Shown in pieces: positions 5,192 to 24,767 of a stretch of DNA of 32,515 nt (the stretch's first letter is position 1; every line of letters begins with the position of its first letter). Position numbers and translations under genes: made by a program. The stretch comes from a virus. The stretch is taken from the IMG/VR virus record IMGVR_UViG_3300037487_000685, positions 1 through 32,515 of that record, one strand, 5' to 3'. The notes under the pieces were generated by a model. That model searched no databases and had not been told where the DNA came from. It saw nothing but the letters and a program-made list of their open reading frames with translations.

Positions 5192-6799
5192 ATGTCCACA
5201 CAAGTGATGAACCGCGAACGACTAATCGGCAACGCCATGACGTTGCGAGATGAGTGGTTGCGTAAGATTGGAATTTTAGACCCTCCTTTGCGGGACATTG
5301 ACAAGGAGTGTGGTTATCCGCCTGGAGACACGATTCCGCTCCAGAACCTTAAAGCAATGTACGACCGAGAGGGTATTGCTAACAGAGTGGTGGGCGTGTA
5401 CCCAGAATCGTGTTGGTCGGTTGATCCTTATGTCTATGAGACGGTACAAGAAGAAGAAACCAAATTTGAAAAGAGACTTGGCCTTATCGTCGAAAAGAAC
5501 CAACTGTGGCATTATCTTCATCGTGTTGATGAATTAAGTGGAATAGGACGGTACGGTGTTCTGCTTTTGGGGATAGACGATGGATCATCCAGTTTGTCTG
5601 AACCTGTTGATGGAATTGATCCCTTGACGGGAGAAGCAAACGAAGGTGAAAAGGAAGAACGCAATCTGCTGTACTTGATGCCATACGACGAATCTTTCGT
5701 TTCCATTTGCGAGTGGGAAAAGGATTGGCGTAGTCCGCGGTACATGAAACCCACCTTATACGAAATCAACATAGCAGACCCAACCATTTGGTCTGGCACT
5801 GGCACGGGAGCTCGCGTATCTAATCCCCCGGATCAAAAGACAGAGAAGGTACATTGGACTCGCATCATTCATGCTGCCGATAACTGCAAGAGCAGTGATA
5901 TATTTGGTGTGCCTCGTCAACAGTCAGTTTATAATCGGCTGTATGACATTCGCAAGATTGCTGGCAGCTCTGCCGAAATGTTCTGGAAAGGTGGCTTTCC
6001 AGGGTATTCGTTTGAGGTTATGCCGAACACGGGCGACATGATGGCGGTTGAGCTTGATCCCGAAGCGATGCGGGAAGAATTTGAGAAGTTCAGCAATAGC
6101 CTTCAACGCTACATGGCTTTGGTTGGGGTGTCTGCTAAATCGTTAGCCCCGCAGGTAGCTGACCCTTCTGCCCATGTCAACGTTCAGTTAATGCTGATTG
6201 CAATCACATTGGGCGTTCCCATGCGTATCTTCATGGGTAGCGAAGAAGGCAAGTTGGCTTCCACCCAAGATAAAGGTAATTGGAATGGTAAAGTCCATTA
6301 CCGGATGGAGAAGTACCTTACTCCTCGATTGGTGCGGCCTACGATTGATCGTTTAATGGCGATTGGTGTTCTGCCCACGGTTGAAAAGTACATCGTACAT
6401 TGGCCTGATCTGAATACCCAAAGTAACATGGAAAAAGCCGAAGTGGCATTGAAGCTCACTGATTCGATGGGTCGGTATATGAGCAGCGGTGCTGATCAAT
6501 TGATGGCTCGCAAAGAGTACCTAACGAAGATCTTCGAGTTTACAACGGAAGAAGCAGACGCCATCATCGAATCGGCAGACGAGCAAGCAGCCGAAGAAGA
6601 AAAGAAGATGCTCGACATGACTGACAAGATGATGAAGAAGGGGCTATTGCCCGAAGGCGGCCCAACACAAATGAAGCCTGATCCACCAAAGATGTTACCT
6701 GGAGGGAAGCCCAAACCGTCTGGAGCTGCCGGTGGCGGCGAACCAAAGAGGACCCCCACTCGTAAGAAGACCATGCCTAATGCAGGAGGCCGTAAGTAA
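5192..6799 (+). CDS. portal protein (DUF1073 / Phage_portal_3 type)
   Basis: 535-residue portal, the ring at the unique capsid vertex through which DNA enters and leaves and to which the terminase and connector dock. Recognised from the Phage_portal_3 pattern: a start region with GIANRVVGVYPESCW, the WTRIIHAADN strand in the middle, and a late block GVPMRIFMGSEEGKLAST followed by KGNWN. The last 70 residues are low complexity, Pro/Gly/Lys-rich, and likely disordered. Length is normal for the family. The ribosome site TAGGAG precedes the ATG. The stop overlaps the next start in TAATG, tying the glycosyltransferase to portal expression. Confidence 0.93.
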   Translation: MSTQVMNRERLIGNAMTLRDEWLRKIGILDPPLRDIDKECGYPPGDTIPLQNLKAMYDREGIANRVVGVYPESCWSVDPYVYETVQEEETKFEKRLGLIVEKNQLWHYLHRVDELSGIGRYGVLLLGIDDGSSSLSEPVDGIDPLTGEANEGEKEERNLLYLMPYDESFVSICEWEKDWRSPRYMKPTLYEINIADPTIWSGTGTGARVSNPPDQKTEKVHWTRIIHAADNCKSSDIFGVPRQQSVYNRLYDIRKIAGSSAEMFWKGGFPGYSFEVMPNTGDMMAVELDPEAMREEFEKFSNSLQRYMALVGVSAKSLAPQVADPSAHVNVQLMLIAITLGVPMRIFMGSEEGKLASTQDKGNWNGKVHYRMEKYLTPRLVRPTIDRLMAIGVLPTVEKYIVHWPDLNTQSNMEKAEVALKLTDSMGRYMSSGADQLMARKEYLTKIFEFTTEEADAIIESADEQAAEEEKKMLDMTDKMMKKGLLPEGGPTQMKPDPPKMLPGGKPKPSGAAGGGEPKRTPTRKKTMPNAGGRK

Positions 6800-7551
6800 T
6801 GCGTCATATTGCTATTATGATTGTAGGTACGAATGCCTACAAAGTTTTAGCGTATCGTTTCATTACCAATTTCATGCACTTTTACACGGGGCATTCAAAG
6901 ATATCCTTTGCTTTGTTTTCTGATGAAGATCCCACTCCTTATGTGGACTATCCAGTTGATTGGTACAAAGCGAATCATTCACATTGGAGAGATGGAACAA
7001 ATAGCAAGTATCAAAATATACTTGATGTACAGAATTATTTGCCGGAGTATACGTACTACTTCGATGCAGATACATACATCAGCCGTTCTTTTGATGCTGA
7101 TTGGTTTATTGGTGATTTGGTAGGAGGTGAACACTACGCAAATCAGACTTCGATGCGAAATAAGAAAGGGTATGAAAGAAACCCGCGTTCGACCTGCTAC
7201 GTCCCATTAGACACAAAGTTGCCGCAAACTTATTACTACGGGGCCTTTTGGGGTGGTAAGACGTATCGTGTGATTGAGATGTGTTTGCTGCTTCTGGAGA
7301 ATCAAAAGAAAGATAAGGAATGGGGGTATGAGCCAGGAGTTAATGATGAAAGCTATCTCAACCAACATTTTCATTATAACCCACCAACAAAAGTGGTTCC
7401 TAGTCAGGATTTCAGATTCGGGATCAGTGACAAGGCCGGTCTCGTGGATATGCGAAACACTGCAAAGAATGTAAAAGAGCTGCTTGGTCAAATAGCAGCC
7501 GTTCGGGGTAAGCCGTTCAACATTAGACAAGAAAAGGTAGTGCTTCTCTAA
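6799..7551 (+). CDS. GT6 family glycosyltransferase (ABO blood-group type)
   Basis: 250-residue soluble retaining glycosyltransferase of CAZy family GT6, which includes the human A/B transferases and adds Gal or GalNAc in alpha-1,3 linkage. Visible landmarks in family order: FDAD with the metal-binding DxD at 89-91; YERNPRS (125-131); YYYGAFWGG (145-153), equivalent to the YYLGGFFGG region of ABO enzymes; NDESYLN (182-188) with E184 matching the catalytic Glu of HDESHLN; and PPTKVVPSQDF (195-205). The vertebrate membrane anchor and stem are absent. It overlaps both portal and MuF genes by one base each, so it is a true member of the head operon. Acceptor is unknown: virion glycoprotein, host glycan and receptor masking are all possible. 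Confidence 0.88.
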   Translation: MRHIAIMIVGTNAYKVLAYRFITNFMHFYTGHSKISFALFSDEDPTPYVDYPVDWYKANHSHWRDGTNSKYQNILDVQNYLPEYTYYFDADTYISRSFDADWFIGDLVGGEHYANQTSMRNKKGYERNPRSTCYVPLDTKLPQTYYYGAFWGGKTYRVIEMCLLLLENQKKDKEWGYEPGVNDESYLNQHFHYNPPTKVVPSQDFRFGISDKAGLVDMRNTAKNVKELLGQIAAVRGKPFNIRQEKVVLL

Positions 7552-9711: not shown

Positions 9712-10248
9712 ATGCCCGTTCGAGAACGAAGAATTTTTGGTTCGAGAGGCTCTGTTTTTACGGTATTGAAAGGATTGTTTTCCTTGGCGGGGTACACGGG
9801 TGATATTATGGCCCTGATTCCTTTGCTAGGAAAATGGAGGGCAGTCGAAGATCCTTGGAATTCGGTCGAAGGAATCAAGGCTCGTTTGTTCGTATTGATC
9901 GAAGCTGCCGAGTTGGTTGTAGACAATACGGAAACAACGGCTGATGATGAAGCTGTTGCTGAATTCAAGAAATTCGTCAATGACGGTACTTTTATCAAGT
10001 ACATTGCTGACTTCTTCGCCAGCAACCCCAACGCCACGGTAGAGCAGTTGTTTGCTGCAATGGACTCAGGTCCTGATGCCGTTCGCCTAGAAGCTGTAGC
10101 AAGTGAACAGCAAATCACTTGGAGCAAGATTCAACAAGCTATTAAGCTCTTGCTTGCTCTGTTGGCTTTGTTCCGCGATGAAGCTGCTTCGCCAGCCGCG
10201 TCTACTACCACTGGCGATCCAGTGCAAACCACATTTCCTTCTTTTTAG
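9712..10248 (+). CDS. protein of unknown function, first gene of the cassette
   Basis: 178 residues with AAGGAG before the ATG. There is a basic N-terminus, a moderately hydrophobic stretch at about 16-40 and another helix near 141-154 (IKLLLALLALFRD), with acidic helices between. The tail is Ser/Thr/Pro-rich. No clear signal peptide. It stands between a promoter and a terminator, which suggests independent, possibly high, expression. No family recognised. Confidence 0.7.
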   Translation: MPVRERRIFGSRGSVFTVLKGLFSLAGYTGDIMALIPLLGKWRAVEDPWNSVEGIKARLFVLIEAAELVVDNTETTADDEAVAEFKKFVNDGTFIKYIADFFASNPNATVEQLFAAMDSGPDAVRLEAVASEQQITWSKIQQAIKLLLALLALFRDEAASPAASTTTGDPVQTTFPSF

Positions 10249-10345: not shown

Positions 10346-10531
10346 ATGAATGATCCTCGTCATCCTATTTGGGGAATCGCAAAGGGGCTGGTTGCCGTCC
10401 TAGTCTTGTTTGTGATTCTATGGTTCAGTTCAAGTCGATTCGATAATACTGAACTAGGAGCGATTGGTTGGTTCGCCGCCATCTATGCTATTATGCAAGG
10501 TGGGCACGAGATTTTAAAGAAGGGAAAGTGA
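10346..10531 (+). CDS. small two-helix membrane protein, holin candidate
   Basis: 61 residues from ATG 10346; longer upstream frames lack a ribosome site and cross the terminator. Two hydrophobic helices are visible, about 9-28 (GIAKGLVAVLVLFVILWF) and 37-52 (LGAIGWFAAIYAIM), joined by a short polar turn, with a basic C-terminus. Size and topology fit small class II-type holins, but there is no sequence signature. It is followed by a Tat-like exported protein and a metalloprotease, so a lysis role is an attractive guess only. Confidence 0.65.
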   Translation: MNDPRHPIWGIAKGLVAVLVLFVILWFSSSRFDNTELGAIGWFAAIYAIMQGGHEILKKGK

Positions 10532-10532
10532 T

Positions 10533-10775
10533 ATGAATCGCCGTCAAATGATGTTTGCTGCTCTGGCTGGTGTCGGTGGAACAATGGGAGCTCGACTGCT
10601 GGACTTTGTGCCAGAAGAGAAGAGATACCCCGAGACCACAGTAACGACGATGGATCCTAACTACCCCTATGGGACAACCACGACACCAGATCCCTTTACT
10701 CGTTTGCGACAGATAACATACGTTTGGAATGAAAAGACGATGCAATGGGATTTTTCATCGTCTGTTTGGATTTAA
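10533..10775 (+). CDS. small exported protein with twin-arginine-like leader
   Basis: 80 residues. The start MNRRQMMFAALAGVGG has paired Arg followed by a hydrophobic stretch, close to a Tat export signal though without the full consensus. The rest is Thr/Pro-rich and Tyr/Trp-containing with no known domain. It begins one base after the preceding stop. Function unknown. Confidence 0.6.
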   Translation: MNRRQMMFAALAGVGGTMGARLLDFVPEEKRYPETTVTTMDPNYPYGTTTTPDPFTRLRQITYVWNEKTMQWDFSSSVWI

Positions 10776-10787
10776 GGAGGAAGTCCG

Positions 10788-11609
10788 ATGTTTGACTTCG
10801 GTAAATTTGGTGAGAAGTTTGGCTATACGGATGATTCCGTAGGTATTGCCGACGCCCAACGAGATTGGGACATCCCACAAACGGGAGTTCTTGACCCTGC
10901 CACTGTTACCGTTCTTACTCGCATTCCTCGCTGTGGTATGTCGGATGCCCAGCCTCTAGGTGGAACGCAAGATAAGTGGGGACTAAAAGAAGTTAGCTAC
11001 ATCATTGCCGGATACCCAACAGGATTGGGTTTAACAAAGAAACAGATAGAAGAAGCCATTGCAATTTGCTATGCAAGTTGGTCTAATGTCTGCGGGCTGC
11101 GGTTTGTCCGTGTTGGCAGCAAGACCGAGGCAAATATAGTAATGGATGTGGGTCGTGGCTCGAGAGCGGGCTTCGATGGGCCTAGCGGGGTGCTTGCGTG
11201 GTGCGAGATACCGCAAGGCTCCAATTTTCGCGGACAGATCAATTTGATGTGGGATATGGATGAGGCATGGACTACATCTAGTTCTCAAAATGGAATTCTT
11301 TTGATAAACACCACAGCACATGAAATTGGACATGGTCTGGGTTTGTATCATACAAAGGTGAGCAAGCAATTGCTGAATCCTGTTTACAATCCAAAGATTG
11401 CATCTCCTCAAGCTGCTTATGATGTAGCAGAGGTGGTTGATCGGTATGGTGCCCCCTTGGCTCCTATTCCGCCGAACCCAACCACTCCGGGTGCAAGCGA
11501 TGTTAAAGCAATTAAGATTTTGTTGAAAGATGGTCGAGTTCTTGGTGCCGATAAGTTTGTGAACTTGACTAATGCTCAACAAGAAGAAGGTGTGTTTCAG
11601 TCGTTCTAG
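10788..11609 (+). CDS. matrixin-type zinc metalloprotease with cysteine switch
   Basis: 273-residue M10A-like (matrixin) protease. Residues about 12-46 resemble the peptidoglycan-binding-like prodomain (GVLDPATVTVL), followed by PRCGMSD (47-53), the cysteine switch in which C49 would cap the zinc and keep the enzyme latent. The catalytic core has FDGPSGVLAW (129-138) and HEIGHGLGLYH (178-188), with zinc ligands H178, H182, H188 and base E179. The Met-turn residue is replaced: L196 stands where Met is expected, eight residues after H188. No classical signal peptide is seen. A C-terminal Pro-rich linker leads to a short extra domain. The ribosome site is AAGGAGG. It could serve entry, lysis or envelope processing. 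Confidence 0.88.
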   Translation: MFDFGKFGEKFGYTDDSVGIADAQRDWDIPQTGVLDPATVTVLTRIPRCGMSDAQPLGGTQDKWGLKEVSYIIAGYPTGLGLTKKQIEEAIAICYASWSNVCGLRFVRVGSKTEANIVMDVGRGSRAGFDGPSGVLAWCEIPQGSNFRGQINLMWDMDEAWTTSSSQNGILLINTTAHEIGHGLGLYHTKVSKQLLNPVYNPKIASPQAAYDVAEVVDRYGAPLAPIPPNPTTPGASDVKAIKILLKDGRVLGADKFVNLTNAQQEEGVFQSF

Positions 11610-11635: not shown

Positions 11636-13189
11636 ATGAACACCGTGATGCTGGCAGTTTTGTTCGTAGCCGTTGGAGGGCCTCTTTCGGGAGACGCTCT
11701 CGATCTGTATGAACCTACTGTCAGGACAATGGTTAGCATTGTAAAAGAACAGGTGGCTCGAGAAGCAGAAGCAACGAAGACGCTTCGCCTCGAAGACCTG
11801 TCACCACCACGAAAGATCGAAAGAAAAACCAAAGAACCAAAACTGATTCCGAAAGTAATCGAGCCATCTCCAGAAGCTGTGAAAGTGAGGGATACCAATG
11901 CTAAGTTCACACAAAGCCAAATCACTGTACAGCATTGGAATGACTATGCTAAGAGGGACCCGTTCGTTCGCTACCTTACTTTGGAGCATGTGGATCCAGC
12001 TTATCGAGCCAATTGGATCAACGCCATTCGATTCGCAATCCCCTCAGCGTCGAGAGCTCGAGAACTCGATCATCAAATACCCCGACAACTCTTAGGTACT
12101 TTGTCCTTTTACATAGACTTAAAGCATTTGGGTTGGGACCCCATTGATTTGAATAAAGTTCTTGAAAAATACCCGTATGCTGATAACGATCCTAACAAGC
12201 CAATTTTAACGATCCGCGGAGACTGGTTATTGCACGAACTAGCCGACGCTCGGAATTCGGACACCTTGTATCGTTTGATGTATGGGGAAAAGAACATACC
12301 CAAGACCGACGAAGACTTTCTAAAGTTTTGGGGGGTTGATAAAACACAACAAGATGGGCAATGGTATGGGTGGATAGAAAGAGACTCACAAGTGAACAAA
12401 AGCGGTGTTCGTTTTCTTGAGCATTTCAATGGCCGTGGTTTTTCTGTTTGGAGAACAAAAGACGCCAGAAAAGTGACTAATAAAACAGATCCGCTAACGA
12501 CACTAGATGGGGAGTTTACCCATGATGGTCGAGAACTTATCGCTCAATTTCCAAAGACATCGGTTCGTGGACGTTCCCGAGGAGCAGCACAAGCCTACTT
12601 ACTCGCTAACGCAGAAGGGAAAAGAGTCGAGGAAGCTCCTGTCGATCTTGTTGAAGACCACAAACGGACTTTTGATGCCGCGATTGTAAACACGGCATCG
12701 TGTACAGTATGCCATGACAAAGGAATGCAACTGCCTTCCTCGAATGCAGTAGAAGATGTTGTGTTGCGAGGAATGACGATAAATGCCCTTGGCAAAGAGA
12801 AGCAAGTCTTTATTGAGGACTTCCATTTGTCAGATGTGCGGATGCAGTTAGATCGTGATATTGAAAACTATGCGATCTTTGTCATGGCGTGCAATGGATT
12901 AGCAACGGAGGAAAATGCAAAGAATTATAAGTTGTGTTTGGATTTGTTTAATCGTAAGGTTTCTTTAACCGATGCGGCACGTGAGCTAGGGGTTAAAGAC
13001 GAAGAGTTGCGGTTGGCGATTGGATACGCCTCTGCAAACAAGATCAATTTAGGGAATCGTTTGTTGTCGCTTGCCTACGGTGATAGTATTCATCGGGACC
13101 AGTGGGAAGACGACTTCGAGCGGGCATACCAGATCGTCCGAATATGGAAAAAAGGACGACAGGCACCAAAAGGAGGAGACTCAAAATGA
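11636..13189 (+). CDS. exported protein with c-type heme motif (CxxCH)
   Basis: 517 residues from ATG 11636; the TTG at 11615 would add seven residues and hide the leader. The first 20 residues look like a Sec signal (hydrophobic, ending in small residues). A Lys/Pro/Glu-rich linker follows to about residue 90. The only heme motif is CTVCH (C356, C359, H360), where cytochrome c maturation would attach heme in the periplasm. The preceding stretch (QAYLLANAEGKRVEEAPVDL, about 319-338) resembles secreted planctomycete c-type proteins by memory. M363 or a later Met may be the second ligand. The end overlaps the next gene in ATGA, so the two heme-motif proteins are translationally coupled. Confidence 0.75.
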   Translation: MNTVMLAVLFVAVGGPLSGDALDLYEPTVRTMVSIVKEQVAREAEATKTLRLEDLSPPRKIERKTKEPKLIPKVIEPSPEAVKVRDTNAKFTQSQITVQHWNDYAKRDPFVRYLTLEHVDPAYRANWINAIRFAIPSASRARELDHQIPRQLLGTLSFYIDLKHLGWDPIDLNKVLEKYPYADNDPNKPILTIRGDWLLHELADARNSDTLYRLMYGEKNIPKTDEDFLKFWGVDKTQQDGQWYGWIERDSQVNKSGVRFLEHFNGRGFSVWRTKDARKVTNKTDPLTTLDGEFTHDGRELIAQFPKTSVRGRSRGAAQAYLLANAEGKRVEEAPVDLVEDHKRTFDAAIVNTASCTVCHDKGMQLPSSNAVEDVVLRGMTINALGKEKQVFIEDFHLSDVRMQLDRDIENYAIFVMACNGLATEENAKNYKLCLDLFNRKVSLTDAARELGVKDEELRLAIGYASANKINLGNRLLSLAYGDSIHRDQWEDDFERAYQIVRIWKKGRQAPKGGDSK

Positions 13190-13755
13190 CCTGGTTTAGT
13201 GTTTTGTTGTCAGCTCTGGTCTTGCTGACGCCCTTTCATGTTTTGCTAGCCGCCGTCTGCGGCAATCAGAGAATTGTGCATCAGCAACAAGTAGTTCAAA
13301 ATCAACAAGTGTTTACTCAATATGTTGCTCGACCTGTAGTCTTGCAACAAGTCAATCCTTACGCTTACTACAGTGCTGGAGCTTTCCTCCAAGAGGAATC
13401 TGTTAGTAACCGACTTGCTACGCAAGTGGAAGCTATGGTTCAAGAACGATTAAAGGAAGCATTGCAAAAGCTGAACTTGCCTGCTCCAGCAGGTGCAAAT
13501 CAGCCACAAACTTCTTTGGGACTACAAACGCTCCAACAGAAGTGTGCAAAGTGTCACACTGATCGAAGTAAGCAAGTAATGGACAATGATGCACCGGCTT
13601 TATTCGACGAGCGGAATCAATGGGTGGGAACGCCTGCACAAGCCGCGTCCTCGAAAGCATTGGCTAAAAGGGGTGCAATGCCCCCGCCGCCCGGCGAACC
13701 GTTGACAGACGATGAGTACCTAGCTGTTGCCCAATGGCTCGATACTGTTAAATAA
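13186..13755 (+). CDS. small exported c-type cytochrome
   Basis: 189 residues from ATG 13186, preceded by AGGAGGAG and overlapping the upstream stop. There is a Sec signal (1 to about 22), then a Gln/Val-rich segment (HQQQVVQNQQVF) like the lipoprotein encoded next, an amphipathic helix, and a cytochrome c domain from about 110. The heme motif is CAKCH (C120, C123, H124); AMPPPPGEPLTDDEY follows with M165 as the likely distal ligand, then a closing helix ending AQWLD. This is the standard order for a class I cytochrome c. It should act outside the inner membrane as an electron carrier or redox partner of the upstream protein. Confidence 0.85.
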   Translation: MTWFSVLLSALVLLTPFHVLLAAVCGNQRIVHQQQVVQNQQVFTQYVARPVVLQQVNPYAYYSAGAFLQEESVSNRLATQVEAMVQERLKEALQKLNLPAPAGANQPQTSLGLQTLQQKCAKCHTDRSKQVMDNDAPALFDERNQWVGTPAQAASSKALAKRGAMPPPPGEPLTDDEYLAVAQWLDTVK

Positions 13756-13785: not shown

Positions 13786-14175
13786 ATGAGAGGATTGATG
13801 TGTGTTTTGATGGTGGCTTGTGCTGTGATCGTTGGTTGTGGTCCCGAAGTAAAAGGATGTGATACTTTTGGTCAACAGCAAATGTTTCAGCAACAGGTAT
13901 ACGCTCAACAAGTGTTTCAGCCTGTGATTGAACAAGTTTATGCGATGCCTGTTATTCAGCAACAGGTATATGCTCAGCCTTTTGTTCAGCAGCAAGTCTA
14001 TGCAGCTCCAGTTGTCCAACGACAAGTGGTGAAGCAACGAGTTGTTCAGCAAAATGTGATTGTGCGACAACCTGTTATTCAACAGCAAGTTGTGGTCCAA
14101 AAAGTTCGTGCCCCGCGAGTACAACGACAAGTGACGCGGTCCTCTACTGTTATTAGAGGCGGCGGTTTGTTTTAA
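13786..14175 (+). CDS. Gln/Val-repeat lipoprotein
   Basis: 129 residues from ATG 13786 with AAAGGAG upstream. The leader ends in a lipobox IVGC (15-18), so C18 is probably acylated and the protein anchored in a membrane. The mature part is built of short repeats of the type QQQVYAQ or QQQVVVQ from about 30 to 116, with no charged core and a basic tail. Such low-complexity Gln/Val repeats are familiar in planctomycete secreted proteins (from memory). It could form a fibrous or adhesive layer. The similar segment in the cytochrome encoded just before suggests they interact or share origin. Confidence 0.75.
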   Translation: MRGLMCVLMVACAVIVGCGPEVKGCDTFGQQQMFQQQVYAQQVFQPVIEQVYAMPVIQQQVYAQPFVQQQVYAAPVVQRQVVKQRVVQQNVIVRQPVIQQQVVVQKVRAPRVQRQVTRSSTVIRGGGLF

Positions 14176-15353: not shown

Positions 15354-15704
15354 ATGGATCAGTCGATGACCGCTAAACAAGTAATAGAAGATCAAGGTGG
15401 TTGGAAAGGAATTGGCATCAAATGGCTTTTCAATCAAAGCGTGCCAGTTATTCTTTTGTTTGTGATTATTGGCGTTCTTGTTTGGAAACTTGATCCATTC
15501 CTTGCTGGCAAAAGCAAGGAACGAGACGACTTCGCTTCTATGCTTTCGGAACAACGTACAGAGTTTAGAACTGACATTAAAGAGATGATGTCAGATCGTA
15601 TTCAATCACAAGAAAGACTAACTGCGGCTTTGCAAGAAATGACACATACTTTGCGGGATATGCAATCGCGTTTGCAGAACAATCCCAATGGGGTTGACAA
15701 TTAA
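15354..15704 (+). CDS. membrane-anchored coiled-coil protein
   Basis: 116 residues. A transmembrane helix at about 31-47 (VILLFVIIGVLVWKL) is followed by a long charged helix (53-108) with coiled-coil spacing. N-terminus is polar. It could be a holin accessory, spanin-like or DNA-injection membrane protein; none can be shown. Its 3' end contains the promoter for the head protease gene. Confidence 0.65.
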   Translation: MDQSMTAKQVIEDQGGWKGIGIKWLFNQSVPVILLFVIIGVLVWKLDPFLAGKSKERDDFASMLSEQRTEFRTDIKEMMSDRIQSQERLTAALQEMTHTLRDMQSRLQNNPNGVDN

Positions 15705-15722
15705 GTACCCTGTCAGTATTGT
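15694..15722 (+). promoter_or_regulatory. sigma70-type promoter of the head protease operon
   Basis: Perfect TTGACA (15694-15699), a 17-base spacer and TATTGT (15717-15722, four of six), 30 bases before ATG 15752. It marks the right edge of the inserted cassette and would restart capsid gene transcription. Confidence 0.5.
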
Positions 15723-15751
15723 GGTTCGGTTATATAAAGGAGGTGTACCTA

Positions 15752-17236
15752 ATGCCGTTGCAAACAATCATTGCAAATGCAAGCGGAGTTTCGAGGCGGG
15801 AGACGATGGCGGGCAAGGACTATCTTGTCGTCCCCATGATAATCCTGACCGAAGGGGTTCATGGCGGTAGCGGTGGGGCTCTTTACTACCCTCCCGAAGA
15901 ACTTCGCAAAACCCCTGTAATCTGGAATCACAAACCGATTGTCGTTTACCACCCAGAACGTGGAGGTGCTCCTGTATCAGCTTGCGATCCTGAGGTTATT
16001 TCAAACCGTGGGATTGGAATGATGATGAATACGGAGTACAAACGATCCAAAGGGCCGGATGGGAAGATGATTGGCAAAGTCCATTCCGAGGCTTGGCTTG
16101 ATCCTGATCGGGTAGAACAAGTGGACATTCGCATTCTCGAGGCTATCGAGTCTGACGAAATGATGGAACTGTCCACGGGTTTGTTTACCGACAACGAAAG
16201 GATCAAGGGTAACTGGAACGGAGAGGAGTATAAGTCAATTGCTCGAAACTACCGTCCAGATCATTTGGCTATTCTGCCTGACCAAGTTGGTGCTTGTTCT
16301 TTGGCAGATGGTGCTGGTTTGTTGCGTGTGAATGTATCAATTCATTCAGCCGAATCACAAGAAGCTATTTCAAAAGCATTGTTTGCTTTGAACATGACTT
16401 CTTCTTTTAACACAAACGAAAAGTCATTCTCCACGATTACAAGCGAATTGTGGACGTTACTTGGGACTATCGAAAAAGACGCTTATGTAGTTGACGTGTT
16501 CGACGATTTCTTCATATACTCGAAGAACAACCTTTTGTACATGATGAGTTATGAAGAAGATGGAGATACTGCTTTGGTTGGGTCACCTGCTGAAATTAAG
16601 CGAGTGACAGAGTATAGAACTGCCGACGGAACCATTTTGGGGAATGCGGCGATCACCACTATTACTAACGAGGAGAAGAACATGGGCAAGCAAGAACTTG
16701 TCGATGGGTTGATCGCCAACGCGGCGGTTGCCTTTGAAGAAGCAGATCGGACGATGTTGATGGGCTTCGATGAAGCAAAGTTGGCGAAGTTCAGCATTGC
16801 CCCTGTTGCTCCGGCTGCTGGTGCATCCGATCCGGCAGCGATTGCTAATGCGGTGGCTGAGGGTGCTGCTGGTGTAGCTCCTGTTGCTGCGATTACGCAA
16901 CCCGCTGCGGTTGTCGAAAAGCAGTTGACCGATGAAGAGTACATCGCCAAGGCCCCTCCGGGCATCCGCGAGTCTCTGCAATCGCTTAAAGCACAAAACG
17001 ATGCCGCAAAGACTGCTGTTTGTGAACGTATCTTGGCGAATACCCAAAACACGTTTACCAAAGAGTATCTGGCAAGCCGCAAGCTTGAAGAGCTGAATGG
17101 CATTGCTGCTTTGATGCACGAACCAAAAATTGCTCCGACCGCGAATTATCGTGGACAGGCGGGTGCTCCTCCAAACACCAATGGAAAGAAGCAAGCCGCT
17201 CTCACACTCCCGAAGAGTGAAGTTGTAGTGCAATAG
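15752..17236 (+). CDS. prohead protease (DUF2213) fused to scaffold domain
   Basis: 494 residues from ATG 15752, chosen over the upstream TTG because AAAGGAGG is 8 or so bases before it. The N-terminal 190 residues match the DUF2213 phage protease pattern: KDYLVVPMIILTEGVH, then WNHKPIVVYHP (H is a likely catalytic residue), ELSTGLF (Ser likely nucleophile) and PDHLAILPDQVGACSLADGA. It matures the capsid by cutting scaffold and itself. Residues about 200-305 form a further domain; from about 311 an Ala/Pro-rich helical region looks like an internal scaffold. Protease-scaffold fusion with a nested scaffold is the lambda C/Nu3 arrangement. Confidence 0.88.
   Translation: MPLQTIIANASGVSRRETMAGKDYLVVPMIILTEGVHGGSGGALYYPPEELRKTPVIWNHKPIVVYHPERGGAPVSACDPEVISNRGIGMMMNTEYKRSKGPDGKMIGKVHSEAWLDPDRVEQVDIRILEAIESDEMMELSTGLFTDNERIKGNWNGEEYKSIARNYRPDHLAILPDQVGACSLADGAGLLRVNVSIHSAESQEAISKALFALNMTSSFNTNEKSFSTITSELWTLLGTIEKDAYVVDVFDDFFIYSKNNLLYMMSYEEDGDTALVGSPAEIKRVTEYRTADGTILGNAAITTITNEEKNMGKQELVDGLIANAAVAFEEADRTMLMGFDEAKLAKFSIAPVAPAAGASDPAAIANAVAEGAAGVAPVAAITQPAAVVEKQLTDEEYIAKAPPGIRESLQSLKAQNDAAKTAVCERILANTQNTFTKEYLASRKLEELNGIAALMHEPKIAPTANYRGQAGAPPNTNGKKQAALTLPKSEVVVQ
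16682..17236 (+). CDS. nested scaffold protein from internal start
   Basis: ATG 16682 lies in the protease frame with GAGGAG six bases upstream, a better ribosome site than chance would give. The product (184 residues, starting MGKQELVDGLIANAAVAFEE) is helical, Ala/Gln/Glu-rich, with a low-complexity middle, fitting a scaffold that fills the prohead before DNA. Independent translation gives more scaffold than protease. Inferred from sequence and from the lambda precedent. Confidence 0.6.
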   Translation: MGKQELVDGLIANAAVAFEEADRTMLMGFDEAKLAKFSIAPVAPAAGASDPAAIANAVAEGAAGVAPVAAITQPAAVVEKQLTDEEYIAKAPPGIRESLQSLKAQNDAAKTAVCERILANTQNTFTKEYLASRKLEELNGIAALMHEPKIAPTANYRGQAGAPPNTNGKKQAALTLPKSEVVVQ

Positions 17237-20707: not shown

Positions 20708-21142
20708 ATGGGCATTCAACTTAAAGGCGAAGCGGGTGTCTTGGCCCGTCTTACTTCTCGGAGACGAAAGTACGCCAAAGCTGTGATTGCTGGTTTGCAG
20801 AATGCTGGTGAGTACCTGTTGGACCGAAGCAACTACTATGTGCCTATTGATAAGCAAGATTTGATTGCTAGTGGGCATGTTAAGAAATCGGGACGTGGGT
20901 ATGGTACTAAAGTGGATGTGGTGTATGATGCACCCCATGCTACTTATGTCCACGAAAGAACAGACCTACGCCACGGCGAAGTGTACAACAAGCATTACGC
21001 TGAAGACATTGCCGCTGGCCGTACCCATGCTCGCCGTCCACAAGAACAGGCTAAGTATTTAGAACGGGCTGCCAACGAGTCTCACAAAGAATTGCTTGCC
21101 ATCATCAAAGCAAGTGTGCTTGCTGCTGGAGGTAAGCGATGA
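20708..21142 (+). CDS. HK97 gp10-like tail completion protein
   Basis: 144 residues. The core YVPIDKQDLIASGHVKK, followed by VVYDAPHATYVHERTD, is the HK97 gp10 family hallmark (Pro-x-Asp turn, then the YA-x-x-x-HE region). A long C-terminal helix follows. It joins tail to connector. It overlaps the next gene by four bases (ATGA). Confidence 0.85.
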   Translation: MGIQLKGEAGVLARLTSRRRKYAKAVIAGLQNAGEYLLDRSNYYVPIDKQDLIASGHVKKSGRGYGTKVDVVYDAPHATYVHERTDLRHGEVYNKHYAEDIAAGRTHARRPQEQAKYLERAANESHKELLAIIKASVLAAGGKR

Positions 21143-22110
21143 ATACTATTCATTCCGTAGCCCAACTCCTCACATCTTACTTGATAACAGAAGGCATTGT
21201 AACTGCTCCTGTTGGTTTGGGTGTTACGTATGAGACGTTGTACCCAACCGCAGATGCCTATATTCCTTCAACTGGTGGCAACTATGGAGACAACACTTCT
21301 TTGTTAGTGGGTCATCAAAGTTTTGCAGGAACTTCTATTCACACCAGAAGTTTGTTGCGATTCGATTTGTCATCTGTTTTGTCAATAACAGAAGCAACCT
21401 TGCGGTTACATTTGAACTCTGTTATTCAAAACACCCCACCTCAAGATTATTATCTTGCTGGATTGTCGCAACCAGCTTGGGTTGAAGATGAAGTACGATG
21501 GACTGAGTATTCGGCGGGTAATAGCTGGACAACTGGTGGTGGTGATTTTGGAGCGATTGCTGACACTGTTACTTTGTCGGGAGGTGAAACACAAGCAAAC
21601 TGGGATGTAACTGCTTTGGCGGTTGGAAGTATTGGCGGTAACATAGACTTAATTATTTATGGTGAAGAGACGCCTACTTTCAACAATGCGTTTGCTGCTG
21701 GCAGTCAAAATGCCGTTGACCAGAACACATGGCCGCAACTAATACTCACTAATCCTGTCTCTGATTGGCCTGGATACATTGCTCAATTACCCACAAACCC
21801 AAACAATGCGGTAGTGGCAATGGATCAGGTAGGGATCACGGAAGGCAGAATCATGCGAGGAGGGGAGACCATTGGTCATCCCGGTTTGCAATTCTTAGTA
21901 CGTTCAGAGACGTTTGAAGAGGGATACCAAAAAGCAAATGAAATTTGTATTGCAATGGATTTGGTTCGGAACACAATTATTGTGATGGGTTCTGATTCTT
22001 ATACGTTGCTCGCTGTGTCAAAAAGAGGAACGACTGTTTACTTGGGTACGGATGAAAACAATCGTTCAATGTTTAGTATCAATGTAATCGTATCAGTACG
22101 ACAAGAATAA
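21139..22110 (+). CDS. tail terminator-like protein with inserted DNRLRE domain
   Basis: 323 residues in a composite layout. Residues 1-25 (a helix, SVAQLLTSYLITEG) and 206-323 (WPGYIAQLPTNPNNAVV, then GGETIGHPGLQFLVR and a long helix with strands) together have the pattern of a phage tail terminator or minor capsid 3-type protein. Between them (about 31-205) is a DNRLRE-type, carbohydrate-binding-like beta domain: YPTADAYIPSTGGNYGDN, RSLLRFDLSSV, and a typical WVEDEVRWTEYSAGNSWTT. The domain would hang from the head-tail junction or tail end. Order after the gp10-like gene supports the terminator call. Confidence 0.75.
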   Translation: MNTIHSVAQLLTSYLITEGIVTAPVGLGVTYETLYPTADAYIPSTGGNYGDNTSLLVGHQSFAGTSIHTRSLLRFDLSSVLSITEATLRLHLNSVIQNTPPQDYYLAGLSQPAWVEDEVRWTEYSAGNSWTTGGGDFGAIADTVTLSGGETQANWDVTALAVGSIGGNIDLIIYGEETPTFNNAFAAGSQNAVDQNTWPQLILTNPVSDWPGYIAQLPTNPNNAVVAMDQVGITEGRIMRGGETIGHPGLQFLVRSETFEEGYQKANEICIAMDLVRNTIIVMGSDSYTLLAVSKRGTTVYLGTDENNRSMFSINVIVSVRQE

Positions 22111-22121
22111 GGATCACACAC

Positions 22122-24767
22122 ATGGCTCTTGCATTTCCTTTTGTTGATGGGGACGCTCTACAGGCAGATATCTTGGCTGCTGCTGCTGATGCATCTGTTT
22201 GGAAGCCAGGAAATGCCAGTCGTCAAATGACAACAGAACTGTCTACCCCTCAACACACAAAGTTGGTTGGGGGTCAAGTCAATGTAGATCCTCGTCGCAT
22301 ACCCATCATTTGCACGGCTAAAGCTGGTTATGCATCTAATGTCTTTGGTTTGGGGACTGGCTACGATTTCAATGGGTTCCCTGTAGCAATGACAGACGAA
22401 GATGGAACAATTCATGTATTTTTAGCACACTCCGCAAACCATGCAGGCGTTGAAACAGTAACAGCTCATTTTTCTTCTACCGATTATGGGAACACATGGA
22501 CACCCGTGGGTATCGTTACGGTTCCTGGTGTAAATGGGGCTGTTATCTATCCGGAGTTGTTGTACCGCATTCAAAATGGAATTTATGCTGGGCGTATTAT
22601 TCTAGTTCATCGTTTTTCTGTCGAAACCCCATCTAATTCATACGCATCGTATAGCGATGATGAAATGGTAACGTGGTCTGCTTCGGTTAGTTGTACGGAT
22701 TTGGTAGCTCCTATGGTTTCGGGCAATGCTGGAGCAGCCATTACTGATTTGGCCGATGGTACTATCGTCATTTCCAATTATAGCCGAGCCGTGTCTACAT
22801 ACTACATTACATCTTTTCGACAATCAACAGATGGTGGAGTTACGTGGACGCAACGATGTGTTATTGAAAATGGAGTGGGTCCTGGCGAGAAACCAGAAGA
22901 ACCGGGTTTGTGTTTGATGGCTAATGGAGAATGGTTAATTTCCGTTCGAGAAGATAACACGGGAACGATTCGGACGTACTACTCAAACGATGATCTTTTG
23001 ACGGTAAACACGATTGCTGGGTCAACCGCTGGTGCCGTCCGTGGTATTGGGCGTCCGTCGTTGTATTCGTTTGAAAACGGCGTTGTGGTTATGTTTACGC
23101 GGTATGTAGCCGCTGACACTTTTCTTGGGATTGCGGCAGGAGCTCCTGTTTTCTACACCAGTGGTGACTATGGTCGCACTTGGAGTGCCCCACGTATTCT
23201 TCATAATCATACTGGTTATATGTCTTACGGTGCATTCTTTCGTGCCGCTGACAATGTGGTTGGTCTGGTGTACTCAGTTGCAGCAGATGTTGGAAGTGGA
23301 TCGCTTGCCGATGATGAATACAAGTTGTGTGATACTTTTGTCACCTACTTGTCGAGTGGCGATGCTGTCACTCCTTTTGGCTCTCGTTTGGGTGGTGTCA
23401 TTCAGAATCCAATAGTAAAGGATCGTCTCGGTTTGTCCATCGCTGCTGTAAGGAAAGCCGAGTCAAATGATGCGACGGTTTTGCAAACTCGATTGAATGC
23501 GTTGACTGAGTATATGATCAAAGCTGGCATCATGCCTCGCCACCCATTAGACATTAGTTCTATTACTGGATTGTGGGAAGCCGATAACATTGCTCAAGCA
23601 GATATGGATTGGTTGGGCACGTTCGCCAGTGTCACGTCTCTTGCCCGCAGTAGCGGCGAGACTGTGGCAGGCACAACCGATGGCGGAGCAACATGGGCTG
23701 TGGGTGCTGGTAAGCTCTCTCATAGTGCCGCCAGTGGCAACAATACGTTTTGGTGGGAAGTAGGTCGATTCAATGGGGTATTAACTGCTAAAGTAACTTG
23801 GCGGAATGATGGGCAGGTTGGTATTTTGTTTCGCTTTGGAACAGGACCTGATTGCTATAAGGTTGGTGCAGATGGTTCTAATATCCGGTTGTATAAGACC
23901 GATAATAATGCAGACACTACACTTGTGACAGGAACAGGAGTTCTTGTTAATGGGGTGGAAGCTACCTTTGTGATTACTTACGTGGGTGCTAGTATCACCG
24001 TTACCCTTGATGGGGCAGCTTGTATTAGTCACACACTTAGCGGAGGTGACCTTGCGGCTATCCTGGGTACTGGTATTGGAGTTAAAACTGCTTCGCTTAC
24101 TGCTACTTACGATGACATTCGATCACATCTAGACTTAGCAGTGGATCAGCCTATGGGCTATGTAGCCGATCAGTCAACTGGTGCGGCTCATATGACGCAG
24201 GCCACTTCTAATCTGCAACCTTTGTATGGTTTGACTAATGGACTGTTTGGCGACAAGCCCTATTTGCGATGGACTGCATCAACGATCAAACGACTTGCCT
24301 CTACTGTCTTTGCTTCTCAAGCTCAGCCGAATGCTGTGGTGTTCGTTGGGTTCTTCGGTGTTACTACCGGAGCCCAGATGAATTTCATTACTAGCAACAA
24401 CGAATCAGGCAACACCCAGAACATAGGATTAACATCCGCAGGCAAATTCCAAGTAAACGCTGGCACGCCTCGAGATGTGGGACCGACAACGAACGTGTGG
24501 CCGATTGGACCAGTAATCATCACAGTCCGATTTAACACTACCGATACCATTGTTCGCTTCAATGGTCGAGAAGTTTATCGATCAACTGCATCGACAACGA
24601 TTGGAACTTCGCCACTTACTCAATTGACGTGGGGCGATGGTATTAATGTCACTGATATGTCATCGCCTGCTATGGCTTTGTTTGCTACAGGCTCGCCAAC
24701 AGAAGCCGAACTGATCGACGTAGAAAAATACTTTGCCGACAAATACAACATTCGCATTGAACGCTAA
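22122..24767 (+). CDS. sialidase-like tail fibre with LamG-type C-terminus
   Basis: 881 residues. The N-terminal half is a BNR/sialidase-type beta propeller with Asp boxes at about 118-126 (SSTDYGNTW), 177-185 (variant), 235-242 (STDGGVTW) and 347-354 (SGDYGRTW). The catalytic Arg/Asp/Tyr set cannot be assigned with confidence, so it may bind or cleave glycans. From about 460 come GLWEADNIAQADMDW, a concanavalin-like sandwich (about 520-670) and a second LamG-like sandwich (about 680-870) as in receptor-binding fibres. No signal peptide. Likely virion receptor-binding protein or depolymerase. Confidence 0.8.
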   Translation: MALAFPFVDGDALQADILAAAADASVWKPGNASRQMTTELSTPQHTKLVGGQVNVDPRRIPIICTAKAGYASNVFGLGTGYDFNGFPVAMTDEDGTIHVFLAHSANHAGVETVTAHFSSTDYGNTWTPVGIVTVPGVNGAVIYPELLYRIQNGIYAGRIILVHRFSVETPSNSYASYSDDEMVTWSASVSCTDLVAPMVSGNAGAAITDLADGTIVISNYSRAVSTYYITSFRQSTDGGVTWTQRCVIENGVGPGEKPEEPGLCLMANGEWLISVREDNTGTIRTYYSNDDLLTVNTIAGSTAGAVRGIGRPSLYSFENGVVVMFTRYVAADTFLGIAAGAPVFYTSGDYGRTWSAPRILHNHTGYMSYGAFFRAADNVVGLVYSVAADVGSGSLADDEYKLCDTFVTYLSSGDAVTPFGSRLGGVIQNPIVKDRLGLSIAAVRKAESNDATVLQTRLNALTEYMIKAGIMPRHPLDISSITGLWEADNIAQADMDWLGTFASVTSLARSSGETVAGTTDGGATWAVGAGKLSHSAASGNNTFWWEVGRFNGVLTAKVTWRNDGQVGILFRFGTGPDCYKVGADGSNIRLYKTDNNADTTLVTGTGVLVNGVEATFVITYVGASITVTLDGAACISHTLSGGDLAAILGTGIGVKTASLTATYDDIRSHLDLAVDQPMGYVADQSTGAAHMTQATSNLQPLYGLTNGLFGDKPYLRWTASTIKRLASTVFASQAQPNAVVFVGFFGVTTGAQMNFITSNNESGNTQNIGLTSAGKFQVNAGTPRDVGPTTNVWPIGPVIITVRFNTTDTIVRFNGREVYRSTASTTIGTSPLTQLTWGDGINVTDMSSPAMALFATGSPTEAELIDVEKYFADKYNIRIER

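Follow-up and report, generated by a model that had tools for sequence, protein, structure and literature searches.

The Mtz-Tim pair of Listeria prophages combines a phage-linked metzincin with a secreted partner and enhances lysis (PMC8235301). In mammals, proMMP9 is activated by oxidants and by myeloperoxidase, a haem peroxidase (PMC9405048). The papers on bacterial MMPs that we found contain nothing on phages, and a cassette of protease and haem genes is described in none of them.

Here we compare these systems with a matrixin locus in the window, by which we mean the whole virus record of 32.5 kb that was analysed. The window encodes terminase, portal, head morphogenesis, decoration, capsid and tape measure genes, and the matrixin sits between the head morphogenesis and the scaffold/capsid genes. 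We found that it belongs, as the protease, to a conserved phage cassette, in which it is followed by two haem genes. These conserved neighbours, absent from an earlier note on the same DNA, are the stronger clue to its role and point to an undescribed secreted protease-haem module in planctomycete viruses. We suggest, with a probability of about one half, that this is a latent, secreted, late protease-haem cassette acting on a planctomycete-type envelope, with the matrixin held by its cysteine switch. The genes concerned are as follows.

9712..10248, + strand: helical protein just upstream, from sequence only
10346..10531, + strand: two-helix membrane protein of 61 aa, holin-like by appearance only
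10533..10775, + strand: ORF of 80 aa with a twin-arginine-type N-terminus, MNRRQMMFAALAGVGG; cassette membership uncertain
10788..11609, + strand: matrixin (M10-like) with cysteine-switch prodomain, from Pfam, PDB, the AF2 model and superposition on proMMPs
11636..13189, + strand: large secreted one-haem protein (CTVCH); in 10 other viral contigs a homologue follows the matrixin, at once or at a short distance
13186..13755, + strand: small secreted cytochrome c (CAKCH), V/Q-rich in its N-terminal part; Pfam Cytochrome_CBB3, 30.7 bits
13786..14175, + strand: V/Q-rich repetitive secreted protein with a lipobox-like N-terminus (VIVGC), from composition and position
15354..15704, + strand: membrane and coiled-coil protein; weak match to phrog_1625 (bacteriocin production/immunity), E 1.7e-4
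15719-17236: candidate head-maturation protease

The helical protein gave no Pfam match, and its proposed homology to helical parts of the L184 and L262 cassettes was not supported by BLASTP. The 61-aa protein has no family match, and calling the product of 15354..15704 a holin is a guess. No peptidoglycan hydrolase was recognised among the window genes scanned, on a contig that ends inside the tape measure gene. The window also encodes a glycosyltransferase of family 6 (blood-group type) between the portal and head-morphogenesis genes (6799-7551), a tail-terminator domain fused to a carbohydrate-binding CBM96 domain (21139-22110), and an 881-aa protein with BNR (sialidase-type) repeats, possibly a host-surface enzyme (22122-24767).

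The matrixin and its predicted structure

The matrixin ORF (10788-11609) encodes 273 aa and starts with ATG behind a strong Shine-Dalgarno sequence, TAAGGAGGAAGTCCGATG. Its product matches Pfam Peptidase_M10 (PF00413) with 84 bits (E 1.3e-23; curated cut-off 24 bits), and the best PDB sequence match, human proMMP-9 (E 2.9e-23), covers prodomain and catalytic domain (query 23-218). In brief, PRCGMSD carries the switch cysteine, C49, and differs from PRCGxPD by a P to S substitution, while HEIGHGLGLYH supplies H178, E179, H182 and H188 of the zinc site. The H, E, G, H, G and H of the zinc motif are invariant in alignment A3. The Met-turn of MMP-9, ALMYP, aligns with QLLNP, which puts L196 at the position of the canonical metzincin Met; this Met is absent though the turn aligns. 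The structural zinc site of MMPs (three His, one Asp) is not kept, the HGD/H/H ligand positions of MMP-9 being occupied by R, S, W and a fourth residue other than His. Judged by these residues, the protein is filed as a non-canonical matrixin homologue and not as a canonical metzincin. The C-terminus is a Pro-rich linker and tail (about 225-273).

No signal peptide was seen in the matrixin ORF, and most viral homologues likewise have none; the matrixins of L096 and L141 carry a twin-arginine-type signal on their own chain. The 80-aa ORF upstream (10533-10775) is in the frame of the matrixin, from which one TAA separates it, and ends 4 codons before the matrixin ATG. No homologue of it was found. 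Joining of the two by stop readthrough was considered and rejected: a shared frame is expected in 1 of 3 cases by chance, and the strong Shine-Dalgarno sequence over the stop favours separate initiation.

An AF2 model of the matrixin, built with 48 homologues, has a mean pLDDT of 83, with values >90 in most of the catalytic domain and of about 75-85 in the prodomain. Its top structural matches are proMMP zymogens, namely proMMP-2 (1eak; Z 24.9, rmsd 2.8, 215 residues, model 1-225), proMMP-1 (Z 24.5) and proMMP-9 (Z 24.2). Structures of catalytic domains only score lower, with at most Z 22.8 over 158 residues. Since the proMMPs outrank these, the prodomain is predicted to be docked zymogen-style, and since a single rigid superposition spans both domains, the PRCG segment would lie in the cleft as in the zymogens. 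With this superposition as a stand-in for the C49-zinc distance, C49 is placed in the model where the cysteine switch of proMMPs is. We therefore predict that C49 of the prodomain caps the catalytic zinc and that the enzyme is made latent.

The earlier note had read a matrixin with C49 in PRCG, the zinc motif HEIGHGLGLYH and a Leu at the Met-turn, and the Pfam score, the proMMP-9 match and the MMP-9 alignment bear it out. Its proposal of a zymogen-type matrixin in a phage agrees with the model, whose fit to proMMP zymogens takes in the prodomain. The peptidoglycan-binding-like prodomain that it named gives only a sub-threshold Pfam match (PG_binding_1, 14.4 bits) but is clear by structure, in the comparison of model residues 1-225 with proMMPs. 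It had also asked whether the fold might place PRCG away from the zinc site and whether homologues might lack C49. The predicted fold superposes on proMMPs with the prodomain docked, and a switch-type cysteine is kept in 63 of the 64 distinct viral homologues.

Viral relatives and the haem cassette

Scans of viral contigs for close relatives of the window matrixin or of the large haem protein gave no matches. The family was reached by a degenerate DNA pattern for the zinc helix, followed by an alignment search. In this way matrixin relatives were found in about 80 viral loci of IMG/VR, some of them on contigs of about 200 kb. A tblastn search with the window matrixin and a matrixin of the jumbo clade against 50,697 named phage records gave no hits. 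In view of the IMG/VR loci, the idea that such a gene is unusual in a phage is not supported in that form, though none of the named records has one. The animal-style latent matrixin design would be a regular feature of phage biology rather than an odd gene in one virus.

Met occupies the Met-turn in 58 of the 64 distinct viral matrixins, Leu in 5 (the window, L081, L316, L186 and L190) and Asn in 1 (L301). Replacement of Met by Leu at this position is reported to perturb the activity of MMP-2 only slightly and to lower that of protease C (PMC1266349). The Leu at position 196 was correctly identified earlier, and its recurrence together with the MMP-2 case marks it as a tolerated variant. The L301 matrixin (5898-6686, - strand) combines its Asn with HELSH and is possibly inactive or altered. 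A compact clade found in large-phage contigs of up to about 205 kb (L127, L137, L151, L144 and similar) has the motifs MARKP..., RRCGLPD and GNLMAPYY, and a conserved gene order, with a gene for an RNA polymerase beta-like protein a short way downstream of the matrixin, after a few others.

A maximum-likelihood tree unites the 37 viral rows with two planctomycete rows on long branches in a single clade (support 98/96), with the caveat that a viral profile was used to select the viral rows. The other bacterial matrixins sampled and human MMP-9 group outside this clade, MMP-9 among cellular sequences. M10-like matches were found in 217 of 392 planctomycete genomes; among the matches listed, the chromosomal ones start only downstream of the switch.

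The cassette is present in 11 viral contigs including the window, and runs from the matrixin to the large one-haem protein, the small cytochrome c and, usually, the V/Q-rich protein. The large haem gene lies beside or near the matrixin in L175, L177, L184 and L189 according to a neighbourhood comparison, and further cases are L195-L197, L301, L311, L314 and L316. In L184, three genes lie between the matrixin and the haem pair. L307 grouped with the cassette carriers in the tree though its locus was cut off, and a search of the whole contig gave the matrixin, the large and the small haem gene in a row. We consider the association of the matrixin with haem genes solid. Among 25 matrixin-bearing records searched whole, the large haem gene is absent from 23 outside the cassette group, many of them fragments, which suggests that the protease can also work alone.

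The ORF of the large haem protein is open from TTG 11615, with ATG 11636 as the likely start, and its CxxCH is invariant in an alignment of 20 phage and host (planctomycete) sequences. The start of the small cytochrome c gene overlaps the stop of the large one (ATGA); the product, 217 aa as listed, has one CxxCH, and a counterpart is found in all 11 matrixin cassettes. The V/Q-rich ORF (13786..14175) is open from TTG 13768. A V/Q-rich protein of like composition occupies the matching position in L175, L177, L189, L195, L301, L311, L337 and L338, and in L262 the V/Q-rich part is fused to the large haem protein.

Homologues of the large haem domain are encoded on planctomycete chromosomes, where the domain follows a PSCyt1 (PF07635) cytochrome within one fused protein. 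This host fusion suggests that the two phage haem genes are functionally linked, and the homology suggests a planctomycete as host phylum. A model of the large protein (pLDDT 71) gave no match in Foldseek. Cytochrome P460 compares with it at Z 4.5 over 107 residues and Z 3.3 over 113, below the level of trust, and as the fold of this partner it is only a lead.

Two further loci may be mentioned here. In L125 (1304-3104) a viral matrixin is directly followed by a gene of the di-haem cytochrome c peroxidase/MauG type (Pfam CCP_MauG, 184 bits). In L175 (11221-12894) a protein with collagen-like Gly-X-Y repeats, probably a tail fibre, is encoded about 3 kb from the matrixin. This neighbour prompted the idea that matrixins go with collagen-like fibres of phages, which was discarded because the other such repeats found are in bacterial genomes or on the other strand.

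Related elements with other proteases

We found the phage-type large haem gene in 5 of the 7 genomes of one planctomycete family. A subtilase (S8) gene stands before it in the prophage-like planctomycete elements L262, L332, L333 and L334, and in L262 and L333 genes that look like terminase and portal genes come next along. Over their last 35 residues, the subtilases of L262 and L333 are more similar to matrixin tails (VVVNGRTGTFVFVP compared with TIVINGRPYVLVP) than is any of 2,378 control tails. For L332 and L334 the likeness of the subtilase tails to matrixin tails was not above the controls. In several genomes of the family, the element (L262, G375:C18; L331-L334) has a similar neighbour gene, by appearance of the molybdenum-cofactor type. 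The subtilase-haem element of L262 and L331-L334 is possibly a phage element that has been domesticated and is passed on by vertical descent.

In the 595-kb phage LR756511.1, the protease slot beside the large and small haem genes is taken by a papain-like protein (C1, E 0.0033, just under the cut-off) with the motifs QGMTSSC, GGHC and NSWG. That proteases of three unrelated classes precede the same haem pair argues for a single task shared by proteolysis and haem chemistry. Based on these observations, we tentatively put forward, as a possible though not a probable reading, a new module composed of an exchangeable secreted protease (matrixin zymogen, subtilase or papain-like), a split two-haem system of planctomycete type and a repetitive secreted protein. 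Such a module would dismantle or remodel the proteinaceous envelope of planctomycetes, and its matrixin form would be redox-controlled by the switch.

Proposed working and comparison with known systems

We suggest that the matrixin is made late, together with the structural genes, and that the cysteine switch would hold it inert in the reducing cytoplasm. Haem is attached to CxxCH outside the cytoplasm, so the haem partners would work in the periplasm of a planctomycete-type host or further out. The matrixin probably acts outside the cytoplasm as they do, by way of a putative export. In an oxidising or proteolytic compartment, the Cys-Zn bond would be broken by oxidation or by clipping of the prodomain, and the freed matrixin may cut envelope or cassette proteins, as an aid to lysis or in envelope remodelling. 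Lysis help, envelope remodelling and superinfection exclusion are candidate tasks of the cassette. The earlier note had suggested envelope passage, lysis or processing of neighbours, which are putative roles as well. An envelope or lysis role is our inference, in which the lysis idea stems from position and a weak match.

Oxidation of C49 by the haem partners would be an attractive link. In its full form, this explanation holds that the haem pair is there to oxidise C49, or to make the oxidant, so that the zymogen is triggered at a fixed point during infection. The near-universal switch cysteine, the conserved adjacency of matrixin and haem genes and the activation of proMMP9 by oxidants and myeloperoxidase (PMC9405048) agree with it. 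However, the same haem pair is found with S8 and C1 proteases that lack such a switch, so that haem-driven oxidation is not the whole story, and many switch-bearing viral matrixins have no haem genes on their record; we regard it as improbable. Somewhat unlikely, in our judgement, is lysogenic conversion or superinfection exclusion, where the cassette would build or remodel a proteinaceous layer, the protease maturing V/Q- or Tyr-rich proteins and the haem proteins cross-linking or oxidising them. Genes for repetitive secreted proteins rich in V/Q, Y and P lie with the haem genes, the large haem protein of L262 carries a fused V/Q tail, L125 pairs its matrixin with a di-haem peroxidase-type gene, and the chromosomal elements in most genomes of one family suit a benefit to the carrier. 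Against this, the haem-peroxidase activity is putative, the fold of the large protein is without a clear match, and most contigs resemble ordinary late structural operons.

The matrixin might instead be a virion protein, packaged or attached to the tail, that clears host surface protein at entry or processes head proteins; it lies among head genes and lacks a signal peptide. Yet the window already has a candidate head-maturation protease, the neighbours encode secreted haem proteins and not virion parts, and in other contigs the matrixin is placed elsewhere relative to the head genes, all of which makes this unlikely. That the matrixin is a recently acquired host gene, a passenger that does nothing for the phage, might be thought from the many planctomycete M10-like proteins. 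The viral matrixins form a clade of their own, the gene order is conserved across divergent contigs and the chromosomal matches listed start downstream of the switch; this explanation was already disfavoured, and we give it very little credence. We thus retain the latent protease-haem cassette as the main reading. Planctomycete phages are almost unknown, and the cassette offers concrete genes to test on envelope handling; should the matrixin be triggered by redox change, oxidation would set the timing of this phage protease.

Compared with the two-haem PSCyt1 (PF07635) proteins of planctomycetes, the phages have a homologous large haem domain with the same invariant CxxCH, but what is fused in the host is split into two genes. 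The MMPs of insect viruses (granulo-, asco-, irido- and entomopoxviruses) are likewise viral matrixins with a similar predicted fold, but belong to insect hosts and an unrelated genome context, with 11-27% identity among the matches listed. Karilysin of Tannerella forsythia has a bacterial M10 catalytic domain that superposes on the model (Z 21.8-22.0 over 155 residues). Its prodomain is very short and has an aspartate switch, whereas the phage matrixin has a helical prodomain and a cysteine switch. With human proMMP-2 and proMMP-9 (M10A) it shares the helical prodomain with PRCG, the HExGHxxGxxH motif and, in the model, a fit over about 210 residues that includes the docked prodomain. It differs from them in the Leu of the Met-turn, the replaced structural-zinc ligands, the shorter prodomain, the lack of haemopexin and fibronectin domains, and in being encoded by a phage. 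For the proposed working, the closest precedent by analogy is the Mtz-Tim pair of Listeria. Mtz is a different metzincin with Met in its Met-turn (AIMLD), and its partner is a TIMP-like lipoprotein and not a haem protein, but there too a phage-associated metzincin is paired with a secreted partner (PMC8235301).
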